In this document: in pieces, positions 18,845 to 23,927 of the stretch
Layout: every line of letters starts with the position of its first letter
Position numbering within the stretch: the first letter of the stretch is position 1
DNA from: Chloroflexota bacterium
Lineage (GTDB): Bacteria > Chloroflexota > UBA11872
Length of the DNA: 34,446 nt
Direction: 5' to 3'
Assembly (NCBI GenBank): GCA_028874315.1
Contig: JAPPKM010000004.1
Location: forward strand, 1 to 34,446
Translations under genes and position numbers: made by a program
The notes under the pieces: generated by a model
What the model saw: the letters and a program-made list of their open reading frames with translations, nothing else
Databases searched by the model: none
Told to the model about the DNA's origin: nothing

Positions 18845-20038
18845 TCAATCCGCTTCGAGCTCGGCTGCCTCAACCAGGGCGGCAATACCCATGCCACCGC
18901 CGACACACAGGGCGGCGACACCTCGCCGCGCGTTGCGGCGCCGCATCTCGTGCGTCAGGGTCACGAGGATTCGGCAGCCGCTGGCACCGATGGGATGACC
19001 CAGCGCGATGGCGCCGCCGTTGACGTTGACCCTGGACGTATCCAGGTCAGGCTGGCGCAGGACTCCCAGCACCTGGCCTGCGAACGCCTCGTTGATCTCA
19101 TAGAGGTCAACGTCTGCAGCCCGCAGACCGTGCTGTTCCAGCAGTCCTCGGATCGCCTCGACCGGACCAAGACCCATCAGCCCCGGTTCGATTCCAACCG
19201 TGTTGAAGCCGCGCAGGGTGTGGTCGTAGCGAAGGCCCTGGTCGTCCGCCCAGCGGCGGGAGGCGACGACCGCCAGCGCGGCGCCATCGTTGATTCCCGA
19301 AGCATTTCCGGCAGTGACCGTGCCGCCGTCCTGAAAAACGGGCCTGAGCGCTGCGAGGGCGGCCAGGCTGGTCTCTCGCGGGTGCTCATCGCGGCTGATC
19401 TCGACCGACCCGCCGTCGCGGGCGAGGGAGATTGGGGTGATCTCTTCGGCCAGCCGATGTCGAGCTGCCTGGTAGCGCCGCTGGCTCTCGAGGGCGTACC
19501 CGTCCTGCTCGGCACGCGAGATTCCCAGCTTGGAGACGATGCGTTCGGTGGTACAGCCCATGTGGATGTGCTCGAAGCAGTCCATCAGCCCGTCGCCCTG
19601 CATCGAATCTACCGGTGACGCCGCCAGGTCGGGAGCGCCCTCGAGGTCGCGCGGTGTCAGAAATGGCGCGCCCGACATGCGCTCGACGCCGCCGGCCAGA
19701 ACCACGCGACTCTGTTCCAGCCAGACCTGTTGCGCGGCCTGCTGCACCGCCAGCAATCCGCTGCCGCACACCTGGTTGACTGTAAAGGACGGTCGTTCGA
19801 CCGGGATGCCAGCTCGAACGGCGACCTGCCGAGCTACGTTCATACCCAGGCCGGCCTGAAGGGCGCATCCGACAATCACCTGGTCGACCTGGTCGGGTCT
19901 GACGTGCGCGGTCCGCATGAGGTCAACCGCGAGTTGGCGCCCGAGTTCGTCGGCGCTCAATTCGGCAAATGCTCCCAGATACTTGCCGATCGGGGTTCGC
20001 CGCGCGGCCAGGATGACGGCTTCGGGCTGGTCAGGCAT
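18845..20038 (-). CDS. Acetyl-CoA acetyltransferase (thiolase)
   Basis: ATG at 20038 (MPDQPEAVILAARRTPIGKYLGAFAELSADELG), active-site VNQVCGSGLLAVQQAA, NVNGGAIALGHPIGASGCRILVTL, LCVGGGMGIA. Overlaps the upstream gene by 8 bp. Confidence 0.95.
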   Translation of the reverse strand: MPDQPEAVILAARRTPIGKYLGAFAELSADELGRQLAVDLMRTAHVRPDQVDQVIVGCALQAGLGMNVARQVAVRAGIPVERPSFTVNQVCGSGLLAVQQAAQQVWLEQSRVVLAGGVERMSGAPFLTPRDLEGAPDLAASPVDSMQGDGLMDCFEHIHMGCTTERIVSKLGISRAEQDGYALESQRRYQAARHRLAEEITPISLARDGGSVEISRDEHPRETSLAALAALRPVFQDGGTVTAGNASGINDGAALAVVASRRWADDQGLRYDHTLRGFNTVGIEPGLMGLGPVEAIRGLLEQHGLRAADVDLYEINEAFAGQVLGVLRQPDLDTSRVNVNGGAIALGHPIGASGCRILVTLTHEMRRRNARRGVAALCVGGGMGIAALVEAAELEAD

Positions 20039-22034
20039 GTACGGGCTCCGCTGCGAGGAGTTGTGGACGGAGCGATTCAAAGACGGCCAGGCATTCGGGG
20101 TTCACCAGTGACTCGCGGTTGGTCACCGGCTCGTTTCGCAGGATCCGTGTGACAGCCAACTCGGCCAGCTTGCCGTTACGGGTGCGGGGCAGATCGGGGA
20201 CGGCCAGCACGTGGCGAGGTACATGGCGGGGTGAAGCCGACCTGCGAATGGCGTCCTGAATCGTTTCCCGCAGGGCCTCATCGAGCTTGTCCTGCGGGCG
20301 CACGACCACGAAGAGCACGATCTCATCGCGGCCTTCGCGCCTGACGGTCGTCGCCAGACCCGCGACAACTTGCGGAATCGTCTCGATCGGGCGATAGATC
20401 TCGGCCGTTCCGATCCTGACGCCGCCCGGCATCAGAATTGCGTCGCTGCGTCCCAGAATGACGATGCCGCCGCGCGGGGTGATTTCGACAAAGTCGCCGT
20501 GACGCCAGACCCCCGGATATGTCTCAAAGTACGACGCACGGTACCGCTCGCCGTCGGGGTCATTCCAAAACCGCACCGGCATCGAGGGGAAAGGTCTTCG
20601 GCAAACAAGCTCGCCCTGCTGGCTCCGCACCGAGTTTCCGCGCTCGTCGAAGGCAGCGACATCCATGCCCAGCCCGGCGCACTGAATCTCGCCCGCGTAG
20701 ACCGGCAGCAGCGGATTGCCCAGTACGAAGCAGGAGACGATGTCGGTACCGCCGGAGATGGATGCCAGGTGCAGACCGTCGTTGACGTTGGCGTACACCC
20801 AGCGGAAGGCTGCCGGTGACAGAGGAGATCCGGTGGACAGCAACGTGCGCAGCGCCGAGAGGTCGGCTATCTCGCAGGGACGAATCCCGGCTCGCATGCA
20901 GGCTTCCACGAATGATGCGCTGGTGCCGAAGACTGTGACGCCAAGCTCTTCGGCCAGGCGCCAGGCGGCCGACAGATCGGGGTGGTTAAGGCTGCCTTCG
21001 TACAGGACCAGCGTGCAGCCGGTGGCAAGCCCCGAGACCAGCCAGTTCCACATCATCCACCCGCAGGTGGTGAAGTAGACGATCGTGTCGTCGGGCCGCA
21101 GATCGGTGTGGAGTTGGTGTTCCTTGCGGTGTTGCAGGAGCGTGCCGCCGGCGCCGTGGACCAGGCACTTCGGCACGCCGGTTGTTCCCGACGAATAGAG
21201 AATGTAGAGCGGGTGATCGAACGGCAGCGGCGTGAACTCGGGTTCGTCGGTCGATGCCAGGTCGAGCAGCGCGCCCCAGGTCAGCCAGCCGTGAGGCACC
21301 TGGGTCCAGGACGACTGAGCAAACGGAACCACGACGACGTGTTGAATCGAGGGAACCCCAGCGCTGAAATCCTGGATCGTGGCCAGGCATTCGAACTGGC
21401 GGCTGTTGTAGAAGTAGCGGTCGCTCGTGATCAACACGCGAGGCTCGATCTGCCCCAGTCGATCCCGAGCGCCCGCGACCCCGAAGTCCGGCGAACAGGC
21501 GCTCCAGATGGCGCCGATGCTGGCGCAGGCCAGGAAGGCGATGATGGTCTCGGGGCCGTTGACCAGGTAGCCCGCCACGCGGTCGCCCGGTTCGACGCCC
21601 AACTGACGCAACGCGCTGGCACAGCGGCCGACTTCGTTGCGTAGCTCGGCGTAGGTCCGGCGATGGGTGTGACCGGATTCGGTCCGATAGACGAGTGCAA
21701 CTTTGTCGTCGTTGCGGCGCAGCATGTGTTCGGCGTAGTTGAGCGTCGCCCCGCGGAACCACTCGGTTCCGGGCATGCGATCCGGGCCTTTGACCTCGAC
21801 GGGGGGATCGGTGAAGCGGACGCCGGCGAAATCCGCGTATAACGACCAAAAGTCGGCGCTGTCTTCGACTGACCAGCGGTGGAGCGCGGCGTAGTCAGCG
21901 AAGCACTGACCGGTGTGGGCCTCGGCGGCGCGCCAAAAGCGGGCCATCGCGCTGCTGGATCGCCGCTCCCGGCTCGGCCGCCAGAGCGGCGCGTCATCAG
22001 GCGAGGGCATTGTGGGGGGCGGCACGCGGATCAT
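20031..22034 (-). CDS. Acetoacetate-CoA ligase
   Basis: FAGVRFTDPPVEVKGPDRMPGTEWFRGATLNYAEHMLR, LYILYSSGTTGVPKCLVHGAGGTLLQHRKEHQLHTDLRPDD, TTCGWMMWNW. Start at 22034 or 22010; the N-terminal part of the 765-aa ORF upstream of that is probably not coding. Confidence 0.93.
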   Translation of the reverse strand: MIRVPPPTMPSPDDAPLWRPSRERRSSSAMARFWRAAEAHTGQCFADYAALHRWSVEDSADFWSLYADFAGVRFTDPPVEVKGPDRMPGTEWFRGATLNYAEHMLRRNDDKVALVYRTESGHTHRRTYAELRNEVGRCASALRQLGVEPGDRVAGYLVNGPETIIAFLACASIGAIWSACSPDFGVAGARDRLGQIEPRVLITSDRYFYNSRQFECLATIQDFSAGVPSIQHVVVVPFAQSSWTQVPHGWLTWGALLDLASTDEPEFTPLPFDHPLYILYSSGTTGVPKCLVHGAGGTLLQHRKEHQLHTDLRPDDTIVYFTTCGWMMWNWLVSGLATGCTLVLYEGSLNHPDLSAAWRLAEELGVTVFGTSASFVEACMRAGIRPCEIADLSALRTLLSTGSPLSPAAFRWVYANVNDGLHLASISGGTDIVSCFVLGNPLLPVYAGEIQCAGLGMDVAAFDERGNSVRSQQGELVCRRPFPSMPVRFWNDPDGERYRASYFETYPGVWRHGDFVEITPRGGIVILGRSDAILMPGGVRIGTAEIYRPIETIPQVVAGLATTVRREGRDEIVLFVVVRPQDKLDEALRETIQDAIRRSASPRHVPRHVLAVPDLPRTRNGKLAELAVTRILRNEPVTNRESLVNPECLAVFESLRPQLLAAEPVHA

Positions 22035-22055
22035 GCGTGGGGATGATAGGGGAAC

Positions 22056-22101
22056 TGTCTCTCGCCAGCCCGCCCCATAGGGGGCGGGCTGGCGAGAGAC
22101 A
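22056..22101. repeat. Perfect 21-bp inverted repeat with a 4-nt loop
   Basis: TGTCTCTCGCCAGCCCGCCCC - ATAG - GGGGCGGGCTGGCGAGAGACA, followed on + by AATTTT. Confidence 0.95.
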
Positions 22102-22389
22102 ATTTTGGGCGGGTTTCTTGGGCGGATTGGCGATTTCCGAGGGTCGGGGGGCGGCGTGCGGAGTCGGGCTGACTGCGTGGCGGCGTGGGCGTGACAGGGT
22201 GAGCGCGGCGCGGGGCGCCGGATGGACGCTGCCAGATGGGGAATGGAAGCCAAGGTCGGGCATGGTGACTCTGAACAAAGGGAGATAGGCGGCAGGCCCA
22301 GTGTACACCGAGTGATTACGAGAGGCAAGGGGAGCGTAGGAAGGATTCATCTTGAGATTGCCAGTGGGATGGTGGGGGCGCGCCTTCGG

Positions 22390-22537
22390 ATGTGTCCACT
22401 CGGTCGGGCCAATGTGTCCAATTTTTGGCCGCATGTGTCCACTTTCGAGGGAAATGTGCCCAGTTTGGCGAGGGATGTGTCCACTTTGACGGAGCATGTG
22501 TCCCGTTCTTGGCCAAATGTGTTCAGTTTCTTGGCGA
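22390..22537. repeat. Tandem array 1: seven 21-bp units, consensus ATGTGTCCACTTT + 8 variable nt
   Basis: Unit starts 22390, 22412, 22433, 22454, 22475, 22496, 22517; spacing 22, then 21 x5. Confidence 0.92.
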
Positions 22538-22717
22538 CGTACGCTCCCTGGGTTCAGCCGTTCGCGAAGCGGGGACATTCATCCTTCGGCAAGTCAGGAC
22601 TGGCTTCGACAGGCTCAGGGCGGGCTCTCGGGAGCCTCGGAACGGCAATTCGTGGGGCGCGGTCGGTGGGGGAGCGGACGGTTGTGCTCCGGGTGTCCGG
22701 GCCGAGGCCGGGTGAAC

Positions 22718-22822
22718 AGGTGTTCAATTTGAACGCGAATGTGTTCACTCTTGCCGCAGATGTGTTCACTTTCGCGGGGAATGTGTTCAGTTCAGGCGCC
22801 GAGGTGTTCAGTCCGAGACGGG
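22718..22822. repeat. Tandem array 2: five 21-bp units, consensus ATGTGTTCACTTT + 8 variable nt
   Basis: Unit starts 22718, 22739, 22760, 22781, 22802; all spacings 21. A degenerate further unit (GGGATTCAG) follows. Confidence 0.92.
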
Positions 22823-23058: not shown

Positions 23059-23223
23059 GTGTTCCAGCCTGAAATTGACCTGAACATGCGCGTCCTGCGG
23101 TTTCTGGACCGAATACTCAGGCGGGCGCTGGCGGACGTTGGCATGGCGTCGAATGTTACGGCGCGCACCAACGCAAACAAGGTGGAGCAGCTGCACAGCG
23201 GCAACTATTGGCAGCCCCGATAA
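23059..23223 (+). CDS. Microprotein copy 1 (unknown family, amphipathic basic helix)
   Basis: GTG at 23059 or ATG at 23086: VFQPEIDLNMRVLRFLDRILRRALADVGMASNVTARTNANKVEQLHSGNYWQPR. Aligns with copies 2 and 3 with many synonymous third-position changes. Confidence 0.6.
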   Translation: MFQPEIDLNMRVLRFLDRILRRALADVGMASNVTARTNANKVEQLHSGNYWQPR

Positions 23224-23282: not shown

Positions 23283-23435
23283 ATGCGTGTCTTGAGGTTC
23301 CTGGGCCGAATCCTGAAGCGGGCGCTGGCAGACATCAATAGGTCGGCGAATCAGACGGCCAACACGGGATCCAATCGGATCGACAAGTTCACCGGCGGGT
23401 CGCCCGGCAGCATGGGTGGTGGGCCGCTCGGCTGA
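23283..23435 (+). CDS. Microprotein copy 2 (same family)
   Basis: MRVLRFLGRILKRALADINRSANQTANTGSNRIDKFTGGSPGSMGGGPLG. Upstream residues RDRFGREVFQFESGWN are also conserved, so the true start may be upstream (TTG at 23208). Confidence 0.65.
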   Translation: MRVLRFLGRILKRALADINRSANQTANTGSNRIDKFTGGSPGSMGGGPLG

Positions 23436-23465
23436 CGGCTTGAAGGAGGGCTTAGACCTTCCCTG

Positions 23466-23697
23466 CTAGCCGCCGATTTGGTACATCTCGACTTTTCGGC
23501 CGCTGTGGGGGTGGCCGGATTCGTCGATGAGGTCGGCGCGTCCTTCGGAGTAGCAGTCGGTTCGGGCGGTCCAGGCACCTTGGATTCGGGCGCGTAGGTC
23601 GTCATCGCTTCCGTCGTCTTGGGGCAGGATTCGCATGGTGGCTCTGGTGCCCGCGAAACGGTGGGTCAGGAGCTGCCCGCCGATGGCAAGGCTCGCA
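23466..23697 (-). pseudogene. Duplicated 3'-terminal fragment of moaA
   Basis: Minus-strand reading GASLAIGGQLLTHRFAGTRATMRILPQDDGSDDDLRARIQGAWTARTDCYSEGRADLIDESGHPHSGRKVEMYQIGG* aligns without indels from LLT to the end of the intact MoaA C-terminus. The MoaA Cys in LLTC is His here. Confidence 0.9.
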
Positions 23698-23747
23698 CCC
23701 GTGATAGATTCGAAAGTGAACTGTTTCAGTCTGAGACTGGTTCTAAT

Positions 23748-23897
23748 GTGTGCGCCTTACGATTCCTTGGACGGATTCTGAAACGGGCATGGGCTGACAT
23801 CGTCAAGGCATCGAACACCTCGGTCAATACGAGAGCGAACAAGATCGACAAACTCACCGGCGGCATGGGCGACCAGATCAACATGGGCTCTAGCTGA
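23748..23897 (+). CDS. Microprotein copy 3 (same family)
   Basis: (RDRFESELFQSETGSN)VCALRFLGRILKRAWADIVKASNTSVNTRANKIDKLTGGMGDQINMGSS. The GTG aligns with the ATG of copies 1 and 2. The longer track ORF starts at 23619. Confidence 0.65.
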   Translation: MCALRFLGRILKRAWADIVKASNTSVNTRANKIDKLTGGMGDQINMGSS

Positions 23898-23927
23898 CGA
23901 GTGGGTGGTGAAGTCACTCCTTCGCGT

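Follow-up and report, generated by a model that had tools for sequence, protein, structure and literature searches.

Helically phased arrays of a 13-bp word beside predicted promoters in one Chloroflexota genus, and their possible origin as operators from IS481 ends

Operator or enhancer arrays for activators are known in bacteria, and AraC, with half-sites 21 bp apart, is an example. Plasmid iterons are 17-22-bp direct repeats that Rep monomers bind, and homotypic site clusters are usually linked with eukaryotic enhancers. Literature searches found nothing on arrays like those described here, which lie at 22390-22822 of the window, i.e. the whole stretch of 34,446 nucleotides of Chloroflexota DNA that was analysed. 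They comprise 12 units, each of them ATGTGTYCASTTT followed by 8 nucleotides, arranged as seven plus five. Array 1 (22390-22537, + strand in the ATGTGTYCASTTT orientation) has seven 21-bp units that start at 22390, which is the head unit, and at 22412, 22433, 22454, 22475, 22496 and 22517, so that the first step is 22 bp and all others 21 bp; six units are of the TCC type and the seventh, the last, is of the TTC type. Array 2 (22718-22822, + strand) has five 21-bp units of the TTC type, starting at 22718, 22739, 22760, 22781 and 22802 with steps of 21 bp throughout, and the GTGAACA directly before it creates a palindromic head, TGAACAGGTGTTCA. Read on the minus strand, as the downstream gene is, the core is AAASTGRACACAT. 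The unstranded spacer between the arrays (22538-22717) is missing in orthologs with a single array. A REP-like CTTCGACAGGCTCAGGGC lies in it at about 22605-22632, and REP-like CTTCGACAGGCTCAGGRC words occur both there and in the promoter-array spacers of many array loci.

The periodicity of the window arrays is confirmed to be far beyond chance, as the longest run of cores at 20-23 bp spacing is 7 in the window and was 1, once 2, in 60 first-order shuffles. A lone core with 3 mismatches allowed is not enriched within the window, and it is thus the periodic array that constitutes the signal. The original prediction, of 12 units in two 21-bp arrays with one 22-bp step and GTG in every unit, is borne out by the coordinates and by a GTG count of 12 in 12, and a genome-wide search at 21-bp periodicity, which it had proposed, gave 41 matches to a two-unit pattern in the source genome and 0 to the reversed control. 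The window also holds three micro-ORFs in tandem, each about 45-50 residues long (23085-23220, 23283-23434 and about 23750-23899), with (M/V)..LRFLGRILKRALADI in common; they adjoin partly duplicated 3' pieces of a neighbouring gene (about 23455-23700, and from about 23925 onward) and have orthologs near three other collected loci (L070, L097 and L100).

The arrays are a family of one Chloroflexota genus and are kept at orthologous positions across its species. Nine such regions, on different contigs, are found in the source genome, and arrays are abundant in 10 of the 13 genomes of the genus, so the absence from every relative that could have refuted the original prediction is not met. Genome G004 of the same genus has a single match, the pattern was searched for without a match in G002 and G003, and none of the six sister-genus genomes searched was positive; G049, from another family, gave a single weak match. 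An exact-pattern scan of genome_contigs gave 63 stretches, nearly all from Chloroflexi MAGs. Only two small contigs carry other labels, L055 ("bacterium") and L056 (Bryobacterales), and the latter was rejected as an array outside the genus since its identity to L043, a Chloroflexi locus, is about 84%, which makes misbinning likely. Judging from isolate names, the genus is probably sponge-associated. The collected set holds 109 arrays in 72 elements, and the counts are not independent, as the set includes overlapping and orthologous loci. The genomes are draft MAGs throughout, and polyC/polyG runs, N runs and contig ends were seen at six loci near the leader hairpins described below; these are apparently assembly or sequencing artefacts, and many array contigs therefore break at hairpins.

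Arrays of 5-7 units are in the majority. In 90 of the 109 the opening step measures 22 or 23 bp, later steps are mainly 21 bp, and the head units have a consensus of their own. Counted without bias, the steps fall at 20-23 (476), 31-32 (13), 42-44 (8), 53 and 62 bp with nothing between, and are thus whole helical turns (about 21, 31.5 and 42 bp), even if some 42-bp steps may conceal one decayed unit. TTC and TCC units sit in blocks, with an agreement between adjacent units of 93.6% compared to the 49.7% expected, and 311 of 407 body units are distinct sequences. Agreement between neighbours is absent at position 10 and at spacer positions 15, 18 and 20, and tandem duplication alone is therefore insufficient to account for the coherence of the types. 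An origin by chance or slippage was excluded on the same grounds, i.e. type coherence without a general homogenisation of the spacers. The comparison of unit number and position in relatives, suggested at the outset, showed that positions are kept, while the content of one locus varies by species, with one or two arrays and differing mixes of types.

The original prediction also held that the nucleotide sequence appears to be what is maintained or homogenised. Heptad repeats could be encoded, as the + frame is open over both window arrays, within a mechanical 278-aa ORF, and + frame ORFs cover the arrays at a few other loci. The irregular first steps and the 31-32-bp steps break this frame, however, and in the 407 body units its third codon positions are near-fixed (100%, 94% and 96%) while the variable positions alter the amino acid, which is the opposite of protein selection; we see next to no chance that the arrays are coding. 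The heptads with freely varying synonymous sites that would have refuted maintenance of the DNA are thus not found in the relatives. In 24 confidently aligned comparisons of orthologous arrays, divergence is 3.5% in the core, 4.7% at the T/C position, 12.9% at the S position and 12.4% in the spacer. The core is thereby about 3.5 times better conserved than the spacers, and as the pairs were picked by spacer identity the contrast is a conservative one. Maintenance at the DNA level stands on this contrast and on the variation being at non-synonymous and not at synonymous positions.

The minus strand beside the window arrays carries a predicted sigma70-type promoter at 22300-22328 (TTGCCT at 22328-22323, a 17-bp spacer with a conserved TCGTAATCA, and TACACT at 22305-22300), a C-rich leader at 22105-22292 (92 C and 38 G in 189 nt counted), a leader hairpin at 22053-22104 (24-bp stem with one mismatch) and, downstream of the promoter, a gene for an AMP-binding acyl-/acetoacetyl-CoA synthetase at 20031-22034 (likely ATG at 22034). 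If the predicted promoter is real, it can be inferred that the leader is transcribed toward the gene. A leader peptide was considered and rejected, as the frame is not conserved between two orthologs when judged by eye. Across the collected set, the promoter motif beside the arrays is CTTGCCNNTCGTAATCANNNNGTGTACAMT (TTGCCN-N17-TACAMT, by prediction sigma70-type) and is directed away from the array. In 39 of the 72 elements it was found at a distance of up to 700 bp, always on the same side and strand, and the other three combinations of side and strand gave 0, 0 and 0; in the remaining 33 elements nothing reached the calling threshold, in many cases because the contig stops at the hairpin. Promoter and array are 76-387 bp apart, and this distance shows no significant phase (p 0.06). 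Of 49 elements, 40 have the nearest gene on the promoter side facing away from the array, and directions on the opposite side are mixed (29/36). At all 12 array loci of genome G010 that have the hairpin module, array, promoter and hairpin follow each other on one strand. The hairpin is about 25 bp across the genus and covaries, with 13 pairs changed on both sides and almost only Watson-Crick pairs. Matches to its model are confined to the genus among 41 genomes, and a known RNA family was excluded because Rfam gave no match at the gathering threshold. Other downstream genes encode SecD, UvrA, oligopeptidase F, MoeA, cytidylate kinase, HisG, oxidoreductases and a sulfatase, and they have no pathway in common.

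Some hairpin modules have no array, and these often carry a symmetric bidirectional promoter. In G004 the pepF hairpin is retained and the promoter and array are missing, and hisG has arrays in RHO3 and none in G010 or G004; the leader module therefore seems to be the older part, with the arrays added upstream of it at a later time. The symmetric promoter, TTGCC...AGTGTACACT...GCAA, was seen at eight array-less modules and has one -10 palindrome common to both promoters. A second conserved leader hairpin, AGAGTTTTTTGGAAAAAACTCTTA, precedes several genes at six loci, hisG leaders among them.

The IS481-type transposases of the genus contain the Pfam domains HTH_32, rve and LZ_Tnp_IS481, and the IS copies have the tips TGTGTAGACCGG and GGTCTGGACA. 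The reverse complement of the array core, STGRACACAT, is the repeated word at the left ends of these elements, where TGRACACC and GTGRACACAT occupy positions -111 and -88 relative to the HTH motif, a step of 23 bp. One group of arrays immediately precedes a terminase-like gene. The product of this gene begins with an HTH domain of ~62 residues, the same as that at the start of the IS481-type transposases, and the sites of these arrays are at -111 (all) and -88 (several), just as in the IS ends, with an upstream extension in 21-bp steps. The variant of the recognition helix goes with the site: IAPATGY with A, IAPMTGY and ISHTTGY with G, and ISAPTGY with TTTACAC, in array or end. The independent lineages behind this association are few, and three elements have mixed ends. 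IS21 ends were rejected as a source, there being a single weak IstB-type match in the source genome, probably DnaA-like.

What the computation shows is the architecture with its whole-turn phasing and coherent types, the maintenance at orthologous loci, the conservation of the core and the placement on the promoter side. The explanation that we prefer, and in which our belief and our doubt are evenly balanced, is that the arrays serve IS481-type helix-turn-helix proteins as operators, which probably arose from IS ends. They would be double-stranded DNA-binding ladders of non-palindromic 13-bp sites (AAASTGRACACAT in gene orientation), with one site per two helical turns and all of them on a single helix face. 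The putative reader would be an IS481-transposase-type HTH domain, and the two flavours of the site (R is A or G) would fit two variants of its recognition helix. By their word, their direction relative to the gene and their irregular 22-23-bp first step, the arrays may be expanded IS481 left ends, which may now serve as an upstream operator or enhancer at a recurring promoter-leader-hairpin module before many unrelated genes. Protein-binding sites in helical phase, and a possible regulatory role for the adjacent genes, had been part of the original prediction; this reading is supported by the relatives, through the whole-turn spacing and the placement upstream of a conserved, predicted promoter motif. 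The prediction did not extend to the promoter and leader hairpin, to the direction of the gene, to the array loci at orthologous positions or to the link with IS481 ends. Recognition by an IS481-type HTH is only suggested, as there are no binding data and, for most species, including the source, the protein that binds has yet to be identified: the HTH profile detected no IS481-type HTH in the source genome or in G012, both array-bearing draft MAGs, and found no conserved stand-alone HTH regulator. That binding tunes the transcription of the downstream gene, and with which sign, is inferred from position, phasing and conservation, without expression data.

The same resemblance to IS481 left ends also fits another view, in which the arrays are what an IS481-like transposon lineage has left behind as it spread by transposition: multi-site ends, as solo ends or non-autonomous relics, which persist passively or because they act as sinks for transposase. 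Insertion preference would then explain why they lie near promoters. The differences among species in array number and type mix at one locus, and the hisG arrays that RHO3 has and G010 and G004 have not, also fit such relics. At the array loci, however, there is no TGTGTAGACCGG tip and no inverted partner end, paired arrays have the same orientation, and no full-length IS481 transposase was found, only the HTH-terminase fusions and short C-terminal fragments. Neither the better conservation of core than spacer at orthologous loci nor the constancy of side and strand with respect to the promoter favours relics, and we regard this alternative as unlikely, without dismissing it.

Sites for chromosome organisation, segregation or DNA packaging, which the HTH-terminase fusion could use as dispersed starts in four species, are a further alternative. 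For the nucleoid or segregation role that the original prediction had named as possible, no direct support came up. There are dozens of dispersed arrays per genome (in draft contigs), and an array-associated HTH is fused to a terminase large subunit. The arrays are however located at promoters, and the fusion occurs at one conserved locus in only 4 of the 13 genus genomes searched, without phage structural neighbours among the proteins scanned; we consider this very improbable. The fusion is an orphan gene, seen in seven collected loci, with its own array upstream, a leader-type hairpin past its stop codon and restriction genes nearby. That it is a mobile element was rejected, as its flanks are common to relatives.

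Returning to operators, a bolder version is that enhancer ladders derived from transposons, in phase with the helix and of two specificities, are the core around which many promoters of the genus were rebuilt, with paired IS481-type HTH readers, one of them fused to the terminase. We offer this tentatively, as a possibility that we rather doubt. If true, the ladders would be a bacterial counterpart of the exaptation of transposons into a regulatory network, and a genus-wide promoter architecture would have been made of homotypic site clusters assembled from insertion-sequence ends. Since one base covaries with the recognition helix, the idea can be tested with short DNA and a 60-residue domain.

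Of the known systems, the ends of IS481 elements share with the arrays the TGRACACAT word, its orientation to the HTH gene, the 22-23-bp first step and the A/G flavour matched to the helix. The arrays have 5-7 units at 21 bp and not two at 23 bp, are without tip or inverted partner and usually without transposase, and are fixed beside promoters. REP and MITE repeats are likewise dispersed and intergenic, and REP-like words occur in the spacers of array loci, but the array units are non-palindromic and their loci orthologous and linked to promoters. Plasmid iterons resemble the arrays in being direct and non-palindromic, in the unit length of about 21 bp, in the copy number of about five and in the whole-turn spacing, but the arrays are found at dozens of dispersed chromosomal loci by promoters. 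Like the operator arrays of activators they are direct repeats at whole-turn spacing upstream of a sigma70-type promoter, here a predicted one, but with many more sites per promoter, in two coherent flavours, and before unrelated genes throughout a genus.
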